Assembly (NCBI GenBank): GCA_001412365.1
Contig: LKUE01000320.1
Coordinates: 1 to 7,890 of the forward strand
Direction: 5' to 3'
DNA length: 7,890 nucleotides
Origin: Desulfuromonas sp. SDB
Lineage (GTDB): Bacteria > SDB-A
The translations under genes were made by a program, and so were the position numbers. Shown here in pieces: positions 678 through 7,890 of this stretch; position 1 is the first letter of the stretch, and every line of letters begins with the position of its first letter. A model generated the notes under the pieces. The model searched no databases, was not told the DNA's origin, and saw only the letters and a program-made list of their open reading frames with translations.

Positions 678-908
678 CTAAAATTTTGTAACCAGATTAG
701 TAAAGATAAGAAAGGATATTGTCAGGAGATAAGGGGTAAGTTTGTTTAAGTTGAGGCTGTCTAAGAAAATTTTCAATATAATCAGCATGACCGATAAAAT
801 TATGATTGAACATATCAGGGAGAGAATGGACAGGGCAATTTCAGAAGGAACATTATTTAAAGTTTTAATTTTATAGCTTGGTAAAATATTATCCTTATTA
901 TTTTGCAT
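678..908 (-). CDS. Small membrane protein, N-terminal half of the split gene
   Basis: This 76-residue frame starts at ATG 906-908 and ends at TAG 678-680. It has a polar N-terminus (MQNNKDNILPSYKIKT), a long hydrophobic helix at about 22-48 (SLICSIIILSVMLIILKIFL) and a second hydrophobic segment near 59-74, so it should be an inner-membrane hairpin. No Shine-Dalgarno is visible upstream, and a TAA three bases before the ATG rules out a longer N-terminus. On its own it has no recognisable domain. It makes most sense as the membrane anchor of the DUF3592-like domain encoded just past the TAG. Confidence 0.45.
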   Translation of the reverse strand: MQNNKDNILPSYKIKTLNNVPSEIALSILSLICSIIILSVMLIILKIFLDSLNLNKLTPYLLTISFLIFTNLVTKF

Positions 909-1006
909 TTAACTTGATAAATATGAGATGAAAATTGATTTGTTTTAATTATCTGTTTCGTTACATATTATTGATTTAGATAATTTACATATAATTTTCA
1001 TTACAT

Positions 1007-2104
1007 TTATGGGGTTAGATCAATAAAAACTTCTTCTTTGGGTAGAGGTATATTTATAAATTCAGTTGTATCCAGGGGTGAATTCAATAAGTCAATTACA
1101 TGAATACGTCGGGTTTCTGCAGTGTGAATATAATAACGGCAATTTTCGAGGTCAATTCCACTGGTCCAATCAGTTTGTTCGGAAAGCGGATGATCTCCGG
1201 AGCTGAGATGGATTACTCCCCGGGGAATATCGAACTGATTTAAAAGGTGAAAAATTTGTTTGATTCCTTCAGTTGCATTCTGTACCGGTATAAGCGCAGC
1301 CTTGAGATAAGCAGCACGTACAAATCGGGAAGGGGGAGTGAAGTCGCCGGGAAGACCGAGCATTCCTGAACCGCGGCCAACCGGAGTAATGTTTTCATTT
1401 CCTAACTGACGAGTCATAGCTGCATCAGGAGATAGCTGGACATAGTTTTTTAAGTTAATCAAATGCCAATCGAACATAGGAGCATTGGTAATAACCCCTA
1501 CCGGATTATCATGGATATTGAGTTCACCATCAACATACTCAACCACAATTGCTGCTCCAGATTTATCCACAACAAACCAATGTAATGGTGGTACATCTCC
1601 CCACCCTGGTTCATCAAAAACAACAGGGGTAACTTTAATTTGAGGTAAGCCAGCTTTTAGTTCCTCTACTGATGAATAGTTTGATAATACCCAGTTTACA
1701 AAATCATTGGAAGAAATTGTAATATCTGCTTGGTCTTCAGTTGCCTGTTGGTATTCTACAAAATTTGGAAACATGAAAGCCCCAGCGGCAAGACCCTTTT
1801 CATTAACTCCATCTACAACTGCTGGTAAATTGTATGCATTCACCCCAGTAAAGGCATACTTCGCTTTCCAACTAGCTCCTGGTCCTCCCCAGGGAGTTGA
1901 ACCTGTAAATGAAGTACTCCTGGGGATAACAATTAATCCCCACTCTACCAGGTCATTCCCTAATTCCATAGTACGCCCGTATACTACCGAACCGTCTTCA
2001 GCAGTAATAGTTATTCCGGTGCAAGCAGAAATATTTGTTGGCAATAAGGTTATAATTACCAGAACAAATAATGATACTGATGATCTGCAGAATGCCAATT
2101 TCAT
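1007..2104 (-). CDS. Secreted choloylglycine hydrolase / penicillin V acylase family (Ntn, C59) amidase
   Basis: This 365-residue protein belongs to the linear amide C-N hydrolase family, which includes bile salt hydrolases and penicillin V acylases. Residues 1-27 form a signal peptide ending NISA, so cleavage would expose Cys28 (CTGITIT), the expected N-terminal nucleophile. Arg44 lies 16 residues after that cysteine, matching Arg18 relative to Cys2 in classical members. The Asp21 position is Glu47 (YGRTMEL). Other landmarks are VNEKGL at 100-105, the VITNAP segment with Asn207 (Asn175 equivalent) and PPSRFVRA at 257-264, which should hold the Arg228 equivalent. Length and these motifs fit the family's Gram-negative exported branch. 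The substrate (bile-salt amide, acyl-homoserine lactone, penicillin V or other N-acyl compound) cannot be told from sequence. AGGAGGT at 2111-2117 lies six bases before the ATG. The enzyme should act in the periplasm or outside the cell, and it carries no T9SS sorting domain. Confidence 0.92.
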   Translation of the reverse strand: MKLAFCRSSVSLFVLVIITLLPTNISACTGITITAEDGSVVYGRTMELGNDLVEWGLIVIPRSTSFTGSTPWGGPGASWKAKYAFTGVNAYNLPAVVDGVNEKGLAAGAFMFPNFVEYQQATEDQADITISSNDFVNWVLSNYSSVEELKAGLPQIKVTPVVFDEPGWGDVPPLHWFVVDKSGAAIVVEYVDGELNIHDNPVGVITNAPMFDWHLINLKNYVQLSPDAAMTRQLGNENITPVGRGSGMLGLPGDFTPPSRFVRAAYLKAALIPVQNATEGIKQIFHLLNQFDIPRGVIHLSSGDHPLSEQTDWTSGIDLENCRYYIHTAETRRIHVIDLLNSPLDTTEFINIPLPKEEVFIDLTP

Positions 2105-2142
2105 TACCTAACCTCCTGTAATGATATCAATTATAATGGTAA

Positions 2143-2178
2143 GTTATTTAAAATAACATGTTTAAACATTAGAGTCAA
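2143..2178 (-). promoter_or_regulatory. Candidate promoter with abutting palindromes upstream of the hydrolase
   Basis: On the minus strand, TTGACT (2173-2178) and TATTTT (2150-2155) are spaced by 17 bases. The spacer contains a perfect 12-bp palindrome, ATGTTTAAACAT (2158-2169). Directly next to it is GTTATTTAAAATAAC (2143-2157), a second palindrome of 7-bp arms around one base that covers the -10. A perfect TATAAT also occurs closer to the gene (2130-2135, minus strand) but has no convincing -35. The overlap of dyads with the promoter suggests an operator for a dimeric repressor. That is an inference, since AT-rich dyads also arise by chance. Confidence 0.4.
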
Positions 2179-2216
2179 TGTGGGAATATTCGTTGATTTC
2201 GAAAACAGAAGATCAA

Positions 2217-2254
2217 GATGAAATTAAGGATTGGTAAAAATCCTTAATTTCATC
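2217..2254 (-). terminator. Perfect 16-bp hairpin, likely transcription terminator
   Basis: The arms GATGAAATTAAGGATT (2217-2232) and AATCCTTAATTTCATC (2239-2254) pair perfectly around a six-base loop. The hairpin begins 23 bases beyond the stop of the Asp-box protein gene and ends well before the hydrolase start, where a terminator between the two minus-strand genes is expected. Downstream on the minus strand the sequence is T-rich but lacks a clean run of T (TTGATCTTCTGTTTTC), and the stem is AT-rich. It may therefore be a weak terminator or an mRNA-stabilising 3' hairpin. Confidence 0.55.
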
Positions 2255-2277
2255 GGTGCTTTAAAAAGTAAGTTTAA

Positions 2278-3810
2278 TTATAAAACAGTAATTCTCTTTG
2301 GAACAGAAATTAAATCTTTTTCCGGGACTCTGATTTCCATAAAATAAGCTCCGGGAGTTAAATCTTCTATGTGGAAATTATTTTCCCCGGCGATGCCAGA
2401 GATTAAATTTGATTTCCAAATAACTCTACCGGAAAGATCGTAGAGTAAAGCTTGATATGTACAGTTTTCAGGTAGTGTGAAATAAACCGGTGAATGCCGG
2501 TTAATAACCGAAGAGTTGATAAGGATATTTAAATGAGGATTTTGAGTATAAACTTCTTCAACTTGCAGTGACCAGGGAGCATCAATCCACAGATCATATC
2601 TCAAGTAACCTGTATAGACCACTGTGCTACCGGAACCATTTGCTCCAGGAGAATATAGAAGCTTGGGACTAGTCCCATCGGCAATGTAATGACAGGGATT
2701 GTCGTTAAGTGGACTGGAATTCATATACCAGGAAGTTGGATTGGTAGCAACACTCCATCCCCAGAAAACCTTGGTTGTATCCAAAGCTAAATCATGGTAG
2801 AGATAGCACATATTAACATAGGCGTTGCCGAATACCTTGTAAAATCTAATATCTGCTCCTGCATCCATATAAGATGAAGTTCCCACCGAAGTCTGGTTCC
2901 AGTTGTACTCTGCACTGTCTGGATGCAGAACTGAAGCAACCCTGATGTCTAAATCATTCTGATAGAGATCGTACTCATAAGTATAGGCGCACCAGATTGC
3001 CGGATTATTGGAATCATTGGAGCAGGCGATTCTGGGTTGCAGGCAGGCATGAGTTTGATCGGCAATTATAAAAGTTGCTCCTATAGGTGAATAGTTAATG
3101 GCATTATACATTTCCCCGTAAATATTCAATGAATCGTGATTTGTAGTTTGTGAACTCATTGAATAAGCTAAATATAGCTCTTCCCGGGGACCATGAGTAA
3201 TGGAACATTCAGGATCAAATGCTTTGCCCTGGGCAGTTTGGATACTAGTTCCAGTCCAGTATACTCCACCGTCATCTGATTTATAAAGATTAAGGGTTGA
3301 ATCATCTTTCCAGAAAAGAACAGTAACATGAGGGTTGCCCTGATGTTCATATAGGCAGGCATCAAAACCTGTGGGCAAGGCGTCAATACTAACCTGTTCG
3401 GTGGAAAGAAATGAATTGGTGGCAAGGTTATAACGGTGTACCCCTAAGTTATCAATCCAGGTTGGATCTTCCGCTACAAAGAAAATGTATAGGTAATTAT
3501 TGGACCATTCGGAGATTAATATTTTAATTTTCTGATATTTATTTATTGCTTGCACTGTATCCAATACTGACCAGGAACCGCCATGATTTGTGGATTTATA
3601 TAAAATTATGGGATAACTGTCCGGAGATAAAACCACAGTGTCTTTTTGTACCGCTACAATCATGGTCCCGTCATTCATGTAGTCACAGTCAAAACAGCAA
3701 ATTTCGCCTTCCACAATTTGAAGGTCTTGTCCCCATTCCGGTGATTGAGAATAAAGAATAGTGGTTGAAATGGTTATCAAAAACAAACAAATACCAGTAA
3801 ATTTTTTCAA
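2278..3810 (-). CDS. Exported Asp-box (BNR-like) protein with T9SS type A sorting domain
   Basis: This 510-residue secreted protein is likely a surface or extracellular beta-propeller-like protein. Residues 1 to about 21 are a signal peptide (MKKFTGICLFLITIST..). Two Asp-box motifs (S-x-D/N-x-G-x-x-W) occur at 73-80 (STNHGGSW) and 178-185 (SDDGGVYW). These are typical of sialidase-like propellers but do not by themselves show enzymatic activity, and I see no clear sialidase active-site set. Residues about 426-510 form a T9SS type A C-terminal domain: LLYDLSGRV at 455-463, LTPGAYFMEIR at 484-494 and a final KRITVL. Family knowledge predicts export across the outer membrane with removal or anchoring of that domain. 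A longer frame reaches an ATG at 3868-3870, but TTG at 3808-3810 is preferred because it gives a clean signal peptide and follows AGGAGG. It may respond to the upstream TPR pair, though a 118-base gap separates them. The ligand is unknown. Confidence 0.85.
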   Translation of the reverse strand: MKKFTGICLFLITISTTILYSQSPEWGQDLQIVEGEICCFDCDYMNDGTMIVAVQKDTVVLSPDSYPIILYKSTNHGGSWSVLDTVQAINKYQKIKILISEWSNNYLYIFFVAEDPTWIDNLGVHRYNLATNSFLSTEQVSIDALPTGFDACLYEHQGNPHVTVLFWKDDSTLNLYKSDDGGVYWTGTSIQTAQGKAFDPECSITHGPREELYLAYSMSSQTTNHDSLNIYGEMYNAINYSPIGATFIIADQTHACLQPRIACSNDSNNPAIWCAYTYEYDLYQNDLDIRVASVLHPDSAEYNWNQTSVGTSSYMDAGADIRFYKVFGNAYVNMCYLYHDLALDTTKVFWGWSVATNPTSWYMNSSPLNDNPCHYIADGTSPKLLYSPGANGSGSTVVYTGYLRYDLWIDAPWSLQVEEVYTQNPHLNILINSSVINRHSPVYFTLPENCTYQALLYDLSGRVIWKSNLISGIAGENNFHIEDLTPGAYFMEIRVPEKDLISVPKRITVL

Positions 3811-3814
3811 TTCT

Positions 3815-3820
3815 CCTCCT
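3815..3820 (-). promoter_or_regulatory. Ribosome-binding site that fixes a TTG start
   Basis: AGGAGG on the minus strand lies four bases before the TTG at 3808-3810. The same four-base spacing is seen between AGGAGG (6319-6324) and the ATG of the divergent Asp-box gene at 6329. An upstream ATG at 3868-3870 would add 20 polar residues ahead of the signal peptide and would place this ribosome-binding site inside the coding region, so it is unlikely. Confidence 0.75.
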
Positions 3821-3928
3821 TGTTGAAATTTTGTTTTTGTATCCAGTAAAATAATTTGATTCTTAAACAAACAAAATATCTTGAGTAAATATAAGCACAG
3901 ATAATATTATTTATGCAATATATTTTTA

Positions 3929-4657
3929 TTAAGTGATCTGACCTGCACAATCAGGGCAAAGACTATTAACTAATTGAGCTTGAGAATGGTTTTCAATGTA
4001 ATTTTCAATCATTTCCCAGTAACCCTTGTCGTTTCTTATCTTTTTACAACCAGCACAGATAGGTAATAGCTTGTTTAAAGTATTGATTTCCTCCAGGGCT
4101 TCAACTAATTTTTGATTGGATTTCACTAACTCAATATTTCTCAATTTGTAAATTTCAGCTTCTTTTTGTTTCTTTTCCAGCTCATATTGATTTTCAATTT
4201 CTGATATAATATGTTTTTTTTCTTCCTGGTGAAGTTCTTCCTTTATACTTAGGTAATTTTCATAATAATCAAGTGAATACAGAAAATCATTGGTCTGTTC
4301 GAAAAGTTGAGATAACTTTAACATTACTTCCGCAATTAATTTTTTTTCAATCTTAGCTTGATTAAATTCTAAAATTGATTTGAAAATTTTCTTAGATTTA
4401 TCAATATCAGATAGCTTGTGATATATACTGCCCTGAATAATTAAAGATTCTGTTTTTAAATTTAACAATTTGTTTTTTTCAGTTGTATCTAAATTCTTTT
4501 TACTCATTAATTTTTCAATGAAATCCAATGCCTGATCATTGTAGTAGATGCTTTCTTCAGGAGAATTATTTAAAGTTTCCATTGAAATTTGGTTTAAAAC
4601 TTTAACTCTGGTTATTCCCTCTGCAGATTGAAGTTCAATTTTATATTTATTATTCAT
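3929..4657 (-). CDS. Short TPR / coiled-coil protein with C-terminal C4 (putative zinc) module
   Basis: This 242-residue protein has no signal peptide or membrane helix and should be cytoplasmic. Residues about 15-145 are helical with degenerate TPR character (for example PEESIYYNDQALDFIEKL near 33-50 and DFLYSLDYYENYLSIKEEL near 124-142). Residues about 143-195 are a charged coiled coil. The C-terminus carries LLPICAGCKKIRNDKGYW, with Cys201 and Cys204, and then CPDC with Cys234 and Cys237, a likely zinc-binding four-cysteine site. This module recurs at the C-termini of bacterial PAS, receiver and TPR signalling proteins; its function is not established to my knowledge. The start ATG (4655-4657) overlaps the previous gene's stop by eight bases and has no Shine-Dalgarno, so translational coupling is likely. 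The C-terminal 75 residues closely parallel the upstream protein, indicating duplication. The TPR part is far shorter and more degenerate than in its partner. Confidence 0.8.
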   Translation of the reverse strand: MNNKYKIELQSAEGITRVKVLNQISMETLNNSPEESIYYNDQALDFIEKLMSKKNLDTTEKNKLLNLKTESLIIQGSIYHKLSDIDKSKKIFKSILEFNQAKIEKKLIAEVMLKLSQLFEQTNDFLYSLDYYENYLSIKEELHQEEKKHIISEIENQYELEKKQKEAEIYKLRNIELVKSNQKLVEALEEINTLNKLLPICAGCKKIRNDKGYWEMIENYIENHSQAQLVNSLCPDCAGQIT

Positions 4658-6119
4658 TTGATTTAGAGGTTTGCATATTTAATTGGATTTCTGTTTCTGG
4701 GAAGTATTTTTGCAGACAATCAGGACATAAACCATGAGTAAATTTTGTATTGGAATGGAAGGAAATATAAGTCTCCACTTCTTCCCAAAATCCTTGGTCA
4801 TCTTTGATCTTTTTACACTTTGGACAGATTGGTATAAATCCGCTAAGTATTTTGACTTCCTCAAGAGCTTTTCTTAATTTTTTATTGGAATATGCCAGTT
4901 CAATATTCTTCAATTTATATATTTCTTTATCTTTTTCCTGTTGTTCTAGCTTATAGATAATTTGTTTTTCCGTAACATTTTTTTCCGTTTCTTCAGTGTA
5001 AATTTGATCATTCAACTTTGAATACATTTTTAAATACTGAAGGGACTTTGAAAATTTATTTTGGGATTTGTAAATATCATGAAAAAGTTTATAGTTGATG
5101 GATATTAATTTTTTATCAATTATTTTTTCAGCAATATTTAGTGATTCCTGGGTATACTTTATTGCCTTATCCAAATTTCTGATTTTTAAGAATAAATCTC
5201 CCATGTTACTTAAAGTACTAGCAATACCAGCTTGGTCCGAGATTTTATGCTTCATATCAATAGCTTTTTGATAACAGTTTAGAGCTAGGTCATAGTTTTT
5301 TAGTGCATTATGGACATTACCCATATTGTTTAATGTATTTGCTATCCCCTTAACATCTGAAATTTTCTCTTTGATATCCAGAGAATTCTGATAGTATTTC
5401 ATTGATTTCTCATACTCTTCCATGTGCATGTAAACCAATCCTAAATTGTTACAAGAATCGGCAATACCCTTTTGGTCATTTAACTTTTTTCTAATTTCCA
5501 ATGATTTTTCAAAACACTCTTTACCTTTGTGATTGTTTTCAAAAATGATATTGATAATTCCAATATGATTGAGATTAACTGCAATTCCTTTATGATCATT
5601 AATGTTCTGGTATAATTTCATAGATTGAATAAAAAATTCCATTGCTGTGGAAAAATTGGAAAGTTTACGATGTGTTCTGCCGATCTTATTGAGAACATTC
5701 GCCTGATTTTTTATATCTTGAAATTTTTTGTAGATCTCTAAACTTTGAGTAAACATCTGCAGGGCAATATCAAACCTGTTTATGGAAAGGTTCGCTTCTC
5801 CAATTATTGATATAAATTTTGCCTTGGAAATTTGATTATCCTGAACTTCACATAGGATCAAACCCCTTTGGGCAAGTTCTATAGATTGGTAGAAAGCTCT
5901 CTTTTTTAAGTATAAGTCAGATTCCAGTTCAAGGAATTCAATTTCCATGTTTCGGTCGGAATTGTTTTTCAATAAATCAATAATTTGACCTCTATATAAT
6001 TCTGATTGCTGAGGATCTTTGAAAAAATTATCCCGGTAAAGATCTTTTAAACTTTGATATTTTTCAATAAGGGAATAATTTTTATCATTTTGTTGGGTAT
6101 TGTGCTTTTGATTTTTCAT
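4650..6119 (-). CDS. TPR-repeat protein with coiled coil and C-terminal C4 (putative zinc) module
   Basis: This 489-residue, probably cytoplasmic protein is built from TPR helices, a coiled coil and a small cysteine module. Residues 100-339 are six consecutive TPR units of exactly 40 residues, each with Ala at unit position 1 and Gly at position 8 (Gly107, 147, 187, 227, 267, 307). Degenerate units flank them at about 60-99 and 340-375. A coiled coil follows at about 376-425 (KDKEIYKLKNIELAYSNKKL), like the linker that joins TPR sensors to GGDEF, kinase or DNA-binding outputs. Here the output is replaced by IPICPKCKKIKDDQGFW and HGLCPDC, with Cys432, 435, 465 and 468, probably a zinc site. 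A protein-protein scaffold or sensor role is inferred. There is no enzymatic domain. The ATG lacks a Shine-Dalgarno. The stop overlaps the start of the next, paralogous gene, so they form an operon. Confidence 0.85.
   Translation of the reverse strand: MKNQKHNTQQNDKNYSLIEKYQSLKDLYRDNFFKDPQQSELYRGQIIDLLKNNSDRNMEIEFLELESDLYLKKRAFYQSIELAQRGLILCEVQDNQISKAKFISIIGEANLSINRFDIALQMFTQSLEIYKKFQDIKNQANVLNKIGRTHRKLSNFSTAMEFFIQSMKLYQNINDHKGIAVNLNHIGIINIIFENNHKGKECFEKSLEIRKKLNDQKGIADSCNNLGLVYMHMEEYEKSMKYYQNSLDIKEKISDVKGIANTLNNMGNVHNALKNYDLALNCYQKAIDMKHKISDQAGIASTLSNMGDLFLKIRNLDKAIKYTQESLNIAEKIIDKKLISINYKLFHDIYKSQNKFSKSLQYLKMYSKLNDQIYTEETEKNVTEKQIIYKLEQQEKDKEIYKLKNIELAYSNKKLRKALEEVKILSGFIPICPKCKKIKDDQGFWEEVETYISFHSNTKFTHGLCPDCLQKYFPETEIQLNMQTSKSNE
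5103..5822 (-). repeat. Six in-frame 120-bp units encoding 40-residue TPRs
   Basis: Residues 100-339 of the long TPR protein divide into six units of 120 bases with no insertions or deletions. At the end of four successive units the protein reads GIA (residues 178-180, 218-220, 258-260 and 298-300), a loop motif between helices. Forty-residue spacing, rather than the canonical 34, is known from the LGN/Rapsyn-like class of TPRs that wrap around peptide ligands. The units are similar but clearly diverged at DNA level, so this is an old protein repeat rather than a recent tandem expansion. Confidence 0.8.
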
Positions 6120-6328: not shown

Positions 6329-7890
6329 ATGAAAAGAGCACTATTATTTATCTTTTTAATTTCTGCAGTCGGTTTAAATGCAAACTACAACCACTGGAAC
6401 ATCTCGGGTGAAGTAAGATGTGCGAATGTAGTTTCAGAGGAGATGGAAATTGATTTAATGGCTGATAATGAAGGTATTAGCGGTAATAATTTATCTGAAC
6501 CAGTTAATCATTATTATCCAAATCAGCAAATTAAATCAAACATTGAATGCGGGAATCCACCTTCTCATTATACTCCCTGTTGGGCTGATGATATATTGAT
6601 ATGGGATAATTGGAACTTAGGGAATGCTCCGGTTGCTTTTGATTATGATGAGGATGGTTTTCTTTATATTGCCGCCATAACCAAAACCAGTTGCCAAGAT
6701 GATTCAGTGATATTTTTAAAATCCACGGACAATGGCTATACCTGGAATCAATTTTGGTTTCTTCATTCCTCTCAAAATATTGAAATGTGGGATTTTGACA
6801 TGAGGGTGGGGCATGTGGGTTCAGATCCTCATGTCTATGTAGTTTTGTTTGACTCCAATTATACCGATGGTCAACGGGAGATGTGGTTCTTTGATTACAA
6901 TCAAGCGACTTCAATAACCAGTATGGATTTTTTTGATCCGGACACCCACTCCCAATTTGAGTCACCTTTTCATGTGGCATTGGACATAACCGACGAAGCA
7001 ACTCCGAAGATATGGATTACCTATAATCGGTATTATTCCTCGACTGCTGCTTGGAACAGTGTTTACTCCACTGACGGAGGTTCTACCTGGAATATTATAA
7101 CTCATGCAATGAGTGATGGATGCAGTTATAGTGATATCTGCATGGGTCCGGATGACTGGGTATATATCGTAAATGTTTATACCCAGGATGATTACCGGGT
7201 GAGAATGAACCAGAGGCAGATTGGAGGATCCAATACCTATTACGATGTATCATCAACCGGAATTGGTTACCGAGTTTATCCTTGTGTGGCGTCGGAGAGG
7301 CATACCGCTTACGGCTCTAATGTTGTCCATGTCCTCTATCAGGATGATAACGGACCGGATGGCAGGATTATGAACTCCTATTCTGGCGATGGAGGGACTA
7401 CTTGGACTATTGATCAATATTGGTCACCAGTCGGAGATATTCCCGCCCTAAGTCCTAATGTCCGCTGCGGCTGGAATTGTGATCAATTTGTCGGATCGGC
7501 AGTTGTTCAAAGTGAATCTTTAGCAACTGCATGGTCCAATAATCAATACTGGGGATCGGCAACCTATGTCAGTGATCATTGGGTTGAATATCACATAATA
7601 CCTCAGGGAGTGGTGGGATCATCTACCGGTAGACAAATTGTTTACGCCCAAGATGGGACAGATAATCTGTGGTATGACCGTTATGACATGGCTAATTCAG
7701 TGGAGGAGATCACCCCGGGAATTGGTCAGATCATGAATATCACTAACAACGGTCATCATGTGGATATTTGTTTTTCCCTGGATCATGAGCAACAGGTAAC
7801 CATCAACCTTATTGATGTTTCCGGCAGAAAAGTGAGAAATCTTCTCAATCAGAATTTATCTTCTGGGGATCATAGTCTCAGTTATGATCT
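6329..7890 (+). CDS. Exported Asp-box (BNR-like) protein with truncated T9SS-type sorting domain
   Basis: An open frame of 520 codons starts at ATG 6329-6331 and runs off the right edge without a stop. The start is firm: AGGAGG at 6319-6324, four bases upstream. Residues 1-18 are a signal peptide (MKRALLFIFLISAVGLNA). Three Asp-box motifs are visible at 132-139 (STDNGYTW), 247-254 (STDGGSTW) and 352-359 (SGDGGTTW), suggesting a beta-propeller fold. From about residue 468 the sequence turns into a T9SS-type C-terminal domain (VTINLIDVSGRKVRNLL at 490-506, SSGDHSLSYDL at 511-521). The characteristic G-x-Y-F-x-x-x end lies outside the window, so perhaps 25-30 residues are missing. The protein should be secreted or surface attached. 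It shares architecture, but little obvious sequence, with the minus-strand Asp-box protein. No catalytic residues can be named and the ligand is unknown. It is transcribed divergently from the TPR pair. Confidence 0.85.
   Translation, partial: MKRALLFIFLISAVGLNANYNHWNISGEVRCANVVSEEMEIDLMADNEGISGNNLSEPVNHYYPNQQIKSNIECGNPPSHYTPCWADDILIWDNWNLGNAPVAFDYDEDGFLYIAAITKTSCQDDSVIFLKSTDNGYTWNQFWFLHSSQNIEMWDFDMRVGHVGSDPHVYVVLFDSNYTDGQREMWFFDYNQATSITSMDFFDPDTHSQFESPFHVALDITDEATPKIWITYNRYYSSTAAWNSVYSTDGGSTWNIITHAMSDGCSYSDICMGPDDWVYIVNVYTQDDYRVRMNQRQIGGSNTYYDVSSTGIGYRVYPCVASERHTAYGSNVVHVLYQDDNGPDGRIMNSYSGDGGTTWTIDQYWSPVGDIPALSPNVRCGWNCDQFVGSAVVQSESLATAWSNNQYWGSATYVSDHWVEYHIIPQGVVGSSTGRQIVYAQDGTDNLWYDRYDMANSVEEITPGIGQIMNITNNGHHVDICFSLDHEQQVTINLIDVSGRKVRNLLNQNLSSGDHSLSYD

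Follow-up and report, generated by a model that had tools for sequence, protein, structure and literature searches.

Overlapping genes for TPR / coiled-coil proteins with unlike C-terminal C4 modules in Desulfuromonas sp. SDB: a candidate two-chain sensor with a composite output

The window, i.e., the whole stretch of 7,890 nucleotides of Desulfuromonas sp. SDB that was analysed, contains two overlapping genes that encode proteins with a TPR-type sensor part, a coiled coil and a C-terminal four-cysteine (C4) module. Overlapping gene pairs of this kind recur in the same genome and in a second genus, their order is fixed, and in every pair the motif elements are split between the two modules in the same way. 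In addition, the TPR and coiled-coil scaffold is shared with histidine kinases and nucleotide cyclases of the same genome. We propose that the two proteins are co-translated and form a heterotypic pair of TPR sensors, the unlike modules of which would make up one composite output, and we assign a probability of about 0.58 to this reading.

The gene pair and its recurrence

The first gene of the pair, which is translated first, is denoted UP, and the second gene is denoted DN. Their features are as follows.

4650-6119, minus strand: UP gene, encoding a 489-residue TPR / coiled-coil / C4-module protein (open reading frame; Pfam TPR_12, E 2.5e-35; TPR_1, E 1.4e-26)
3929-4657, minus strand: DN gene, encoding a 242-residue TPR-like / coiled-coil / C4-module protein (open reading frame; weak Pfam TPR matches; AlphaFold model)
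4650-4657, minus strand: overlap of UP and DN, 8 bases, ATGAATAA, with the DN start codon within the end of UP
4842-5066, minus strand: last TPR hairpin and coiled coil of UP (gapless 75-column alignment of 12 TPR-C4 proteins)
4073-4297, minus strand: last TPR hairpin and coiled coil of DN (model helix 125-196; gapless 75-column alignment)
4695-4886, minus strand: C4 module of UP, residues 412-475 (CPKC...GFW...FTHGLCPDC; [ST]H kept, CPxC; HMM E 2.8e-34)
3932-4117, minus strand: C4 module of DN, residues 181-241 (CAGCKKIRNDKGYW...LVNSLCPDC; HMM E 2.2e-32)

The initial annotation had described an eight-base overlap, a TPR-sensor layout in both proteins and the C4 module as their only output domain, and all three descriptions held. 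The overlap is exactly 8 bases long. The TPRs of UP were recognised with the Pfam E-values given above, and those of DN stayed below the Pfam threshold (TPR_8, E 5e-4; TPR_12, E 9e-4). The AlphaFold model of DN (pLDDT 90.7) shows helical hairpins, followed by a continuous 72-residue helix (125-196) and the module, and its top structural matches were TPR proteins. The coiled coil, as seen in this helix and in the gapless 75-column alignment, sits between the TPR part and the C-terminal module. Pfam and family-library searches detected no histidine kinase, GGDEF, cyclase, HTH or other known output domain in UP or DN. The module is followed by 14 residues in UP and by a single residue in DN.

The arrangement extends beyond this locus and this genome, and its conservation had been proposed as a check on the pair. 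Eight of the 12 modules of the Desulfuromonas sp. SDB genome sit in four tandem, overlapping gene pairs, and a fifth pair was found in another genus of the same family; the sample for the SDB-A phylum comprised four genomes. The overlaps are 8, 8, 8, 4 and 4 bases long (the value for the C236 pair assumes an internal ATG start), and the gene order is UP, then DN, in 5/5 pairs. The lengths of the UP and DN proteins are 489/242, 197/469, 491/434, 476/267 and 185/433 residues. A long TPR part may occur in UP as well as in DN, and thus the sensing parts vary, whereas the module classes do not.

The next gene 3' of DN is co-directional and begins signal-peptide-like in 4/4 pairs with a visible downstream gene. 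The positions of these genes are:

2278-3870 of the window
6427-7056 of locus L017
2559-3173 of locus L018
486-2090 of locus L108

The L108 gene has a 4-base overlap with its pair and encodes a 5'-nucleotidase-type phosphoesterase. In the window, the pair is flanked by genes for secreted BNR/Asp-box-like proteins (2278-3870 and 6329-7888), and the product of 2278-3870 has a weak T9SS-type C-terminal sorting domain. Positions 1007-2104 encode a member of the choloylglycine hydrolase / penicillin V amidase family (Pfam CBAH, E 4.6e-78), the N-terminus of which resembles a signal peptide.

The C4 module: motif, distribution and fold

The conservation of the four cysteines across homologues, a further check that had been proposed, was confirmed in many phyla. 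They are invariant in all 12 module copies of the Desulfuromonas sp. SDB genome. In a set of 171 deduplicated modules from about 15 phyla, 161 of which lie outside the pairs, three of the cysteine columns show no exception, and the fourth has a cysteine in 170/171 modules. The alignments of 105 full proteins and of the 171 modules also revealed that CxxC...CxxC and an invariant W are present in both UP and DN. A dipeptide [S/T]-H, located two residues ahead of the second CxxC, is found in 159/161 modules outside the pairs, and thus the motif exceeds a bare C4; the dipeptide was also seen in 72/73 modules of a very diverged set. The full motif is C-x2-C...G-[YF]-W...[ST]-H-x2-C-x2-C.

A scan of named genomes confirmed at least 478 relatives among at least 583 candidate stretches. 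The best 80 loci were taken, and their hosts belong to the Desulfobacterota, Nitrospirota, Myxococcota, Spirochaetota, Acidobacteriota, Chloroflexota, Verrucomicrobiota, Bacteroidota and others. The view that the module is found at the ends of signalling proteins was corroborated when 105 full proteins were surveyed with Pfam. The domains N-terminal to the module were PAS, REC (21/105 proteins), Cache, HAMP, GAF, a sensory propeller and 7TM, and among the 25 families listed there was no kinase or GGDEF domain ahead of the module. In these proteins the module stands where a kinase or GGDEF domain would otherwise follow PAS, REC, Cache and similar domains as the output. Its position is always C-terminal, with a tail of mostly 3-30 and up to 66 residues. 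The adjacent co-directional genes often encode histidine kinases, PAS proteins or receivers. Phage records contained no module, plasmid records one, and viral contigs two.

The combination with TPRs was seen in the SDB-A phylum. Outside it, 28 named genomes with the module and 296 genomes of another phylum yielded no recognisable TPR-C4 protein. Matches of profile A6 in the 28 genomes start at column 26 or later, with the exception of one Chloroflexota match that starts from column 8, and none of the matches in the 296 genomes starts early. Within the 105-protein survey, TPR_12 apparently occurs just in L108, which is itself a pair protein of the SDB-A phylum.

No family match for the module was obtained in Pfam, NCBIfam, PHROG, PADLOC or PDB sequences. 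An assignment to zf-C4pol was rejected, since that match was at chance level (E 0.008 on the bare 44 residues, below the cut-off). The model of the module (pLDDT 90) has a knuckle, a hairpin and a helix, with the second CxxC at the helix start, and the order of these elements agrees with treble-clef fingers; searches with Foldseek and VIA-align against PDB and BFVD gave no significant fold relative. The module is probably a treble-clef-like domain that is stabilised by a putative zinc ion. It probably docks on a conserved partner, and catalysis by the module is less likely. Neither TPR sensors nor CxxC/CxxC fingers are new as such. Literature text searches for the motif, or for a described output domain of such a kind, gave no match, and in the resources used the C4-[ST]H module is undescribed as a widespread output.

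Asymmetry of the modules and the scaffold shared with kinases and cyclases

The modules of the pairs fall into two classes. UP modules have CPxC in 5/5 cases, versus 2/161 modules elsewhere, and keep [ST]H in 5/5 cases. The C-terminal half, nearly universal elsewhere, is retained in UP as [ST]H-x2-CPxC with LYP. DN modules have CAxC in 5/5 cases, [ST]H is replaced by [IV][NAE] in 5/5 cases, and the LYP tail is lost. A column comparison showed that the DN module of the window keeps the four cysteines, and that [ST]H and the LYP tail are gone. DN also keeps K, K, R, D, G, Y, W, E and Y, and its N-half, CAxCKKIRxDxGYW, is fully canonical.

The two halves of the modules were scored separately with a profile of 151 modules from other phyla, for which the reference values are 49.4+-7.5 (N-half) and 40.7+-8.5 (C-half). 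DN scored 51.3 in the N-half and 3.0 in the C-half, and UP scored 39.2 and 35.5, respectively. The N-half score was higher in DN than in UP in 5/5 pairs, and the C-half score was higher in UP than in DN, again in 5/5 pairs. The N-half of DN thus shows no loss, and the N-half of UP is relaxed, but not destroyed, so that UP homodimers could be active. Both halves are canonical in the unpaired TPR-C4 proteins of L019 and L021. Most tandem module pairs of other phyla retain [ST]H in both members, and the adjacent module genes of the PAS/REC/Cache-C4 type (L051, L063, L073 and L093) encode canonical modules with [ST]H. Three tandem C4-module genes were also seen in an unrelated genome (L119, 5000-7069; G019). 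The last of them is without the [ST]H histidine (YSYR), which echoes the downstream loss in the pairs.

In a tree based on the coiled coil and the module, UP and DN proteins formed two groups and not locus pairs (DN 93/85, UP 48/75). With the motif columns removed, the two groups were neither supported nor rejected (p-AU 0.43 and 0.23), and the five pairs may thus reflect one ancestral change. The Fisher p values for the motif split (2e-8) accordingly overstate the independence of the pairs and should not be taken to reflect five separate events. The likely history is a single ancient duplication, after which the UP/DN unit was copied as a whole. As far as the tools used show, the UP/DN asymmetry is new.

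A profile of the last TPR and the coiled coil alone detected four further proteins in the Desulfuromonas sp. SDB genome. Two of them are histidine kinases (C418 and C331), and the other two are class III nucleotide cyclases, which are encoded by overlapping genes on C393.

732-4539 of locus L213 (G000:C393): cyclase gene pair, C1-like, then C2-like
4777-5682 of the same locus: open reading frame for a TPR-only protein after the pair

An alignment with adenylyl cyclases marks the first enzyme as C1-like; it has VSDIVGFT and IGD, and FGEAVDIAQYI takes the place of the catalytic Asn and Arg, which are missing. The second is C2-like, i.e., it keeps INTAAR, and its first metal Asp is replaced by Glu (ISEFRLF). 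The active-site losses of the two are complementary, a scheme known from obligate C1/C2 heterodimers, and the pair is likely to be an obligate heterodimeric bacterial cyclase. All 12 TPR-C4 proteins align without a gap across the 75 columns of the TPR-coiled-coil region, and this is what an in-register parallel coiled coil would require. By analogy, the cyclase pair on the same scaffold offers the strongest indirect support for a heterodimer of UP and DN. The exchange of output domains on one scaffold also places the C4 module functionally as an output domain, next to kinases and cyclases. The same genome encodes two adjacent GGDEF proteins with intact GGDEF motifs in both (L216, 990-3541; G000:C96).

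Proposed mechanism, alternatives and comparison with known systems

According to the proposed mechanism, the TPR parts would take up a signal, and the ligand is probably a peptide or a protein. The UP and DN chains would zip together along about 70 residues of in-register coiled coil and thereby bring the C4 modules at their C-termini next to each other as the sole output. One composite site might then be formed, with the N-half surface contributed by DN and the [ST]H surface by UP, in analogy to the C1/C2 pair of cyclases that shares this scaffold. Binding of the TPR ligand would alter the geometry of the UP/DN coiled coil, the composite surface would become exposed or aligned, and it could then dock on the conserved partner. 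A broader generalisation is put forward only tentatively, namely that the C4-[ST]H module is a widespread dimeric output domain with its own conserved partner or activity, which in the SDB-A phylum has become an obligate heterodimer with a composite N-half/C-half site as in C1/C2 cyclases.

Other readings of the pair were weighed. DN could be a degenerate decoy or regulatory copy that tunes UP, either by inactive mixed dimers or by titration of the TPR ligand, and in this case UP alone would have an output and there would be no composite site. The [ST]H/LYP half is indeed wholly lost in DN (C-half 3.0 versus 40.7), and UP retains all motif elements recognisably. However, the N-half of DN is at the canonical score in 5/5 pairs, which points to continued selection on that surface, the N-half of UP is itself relaxed, and the cyclase pair of the same genome divides its residues between subunits. 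We regard a decoy as rather unlikely, if well worth considering. The two genes might instead be tandem duplicates that diverged into two separate sensors, which would be co-expressed but form homodimers each and act on different output partners. The TPR lengths differ freely between the partners, which thus may sense different signals, and the single TPR-C4 genes of L019 and L021 exist; yet the order and the overlap are fixed across two genera, the class split is alike in 5/5 pairs, and the length of the coiled coil is fixed, and we consider two independent sensors to be quite improbable.

Two further readings concern the module itself. It could be a catalytic or phosphotransfer domain, with the [ST]H histidine as catalytic residue or phospho-acceptor and DN as the pseudo-enzyme half. 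This would fit with the conservation of the histidine in 159/161 modules across phyla in proteins without another output domain, with REC as N-terminal partner in 21/105 proteins and with histidine kinases as frequent neighbours. With about 45 residues, however, the module is very small, neither its sequence nor its fold resembles that of any enzyme or HPt protein, and H-x2-C-x2-C would equally suit residues that support the structure close to a zinc ion, so that we hold such an activity to be unlikely. In principle, the C4 cluster could also be a redox or metal switch, i.e., the sensor, with the TPRs and the coiled coil serving only for oligomerisation. Its four cysteines are conserved more strongly than any other feature, and anaerobes or metal reducers are common among the hosts. 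But the module comes after dedicated sensor domains of various types, as outputs do, and a bare redox switch would have no need of an invariant W, E, Y and [ST]H; the switch is the least probable of the readings and in our opinion very unlikely.

The heterotypic sensor pair with one composite output is the reading that we favour. Hundreds of bacterial sensor proteins terminate in this module in place of a kinase, cyclase or DNA-binding domain. The UP/DN split points to residues that may matter for its function, and the pair offers a natural putative heterodimer for the question of a composite dimeric output.

Among known systems, treble-clef zinc fingers, including RING and LIM with their H-x2-C-x2-C motifs, resemble the predicted structure of the module in the knuckle, the hairpin and the CxxC at the helix start, and they share its H-x2-C-x2-C spacing. 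The module differs from them in that no sequence or fold match was found, the gap between C2 and C3 spans about 30 residues with an extra helix, and there is a single Cys4 set. The PAS/REC/Cache-C4 proteins of Desulfobacterota, Nitrospirota and others have the same C-terminal module after a coiled coil, but they differ from UP and DN in their sensor domains and in a canonical module with [ST]H. The TPR histidine kinases and class III cyclases of the same genome (C418, C331 and C393) resemble UP and DN in the TPRs and in the KYELEKKxxEAEIYKLKNIEL-type coiled coil, and the genes of the C393 pair overlap, as those of UP and DN do. Their outputs are HisKA/HATPase or Guanylate_cyc, in contrast to the C4 module of UP and DN. 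In mammalian adenylyl cyclase C1/C2, as well as in soluble guanylate cyclase alpha/beta, homologous but non-equivalent output domains with complementary residue loss form one composite site. The fold and the chemistry of these cyclases are unrelated to those of the C4 pair, for which a composite site is proposed. UP and DN are likewise two homologous, non-equivalent subunits that are encoded together, with a consistent split in five overlapping pairs.
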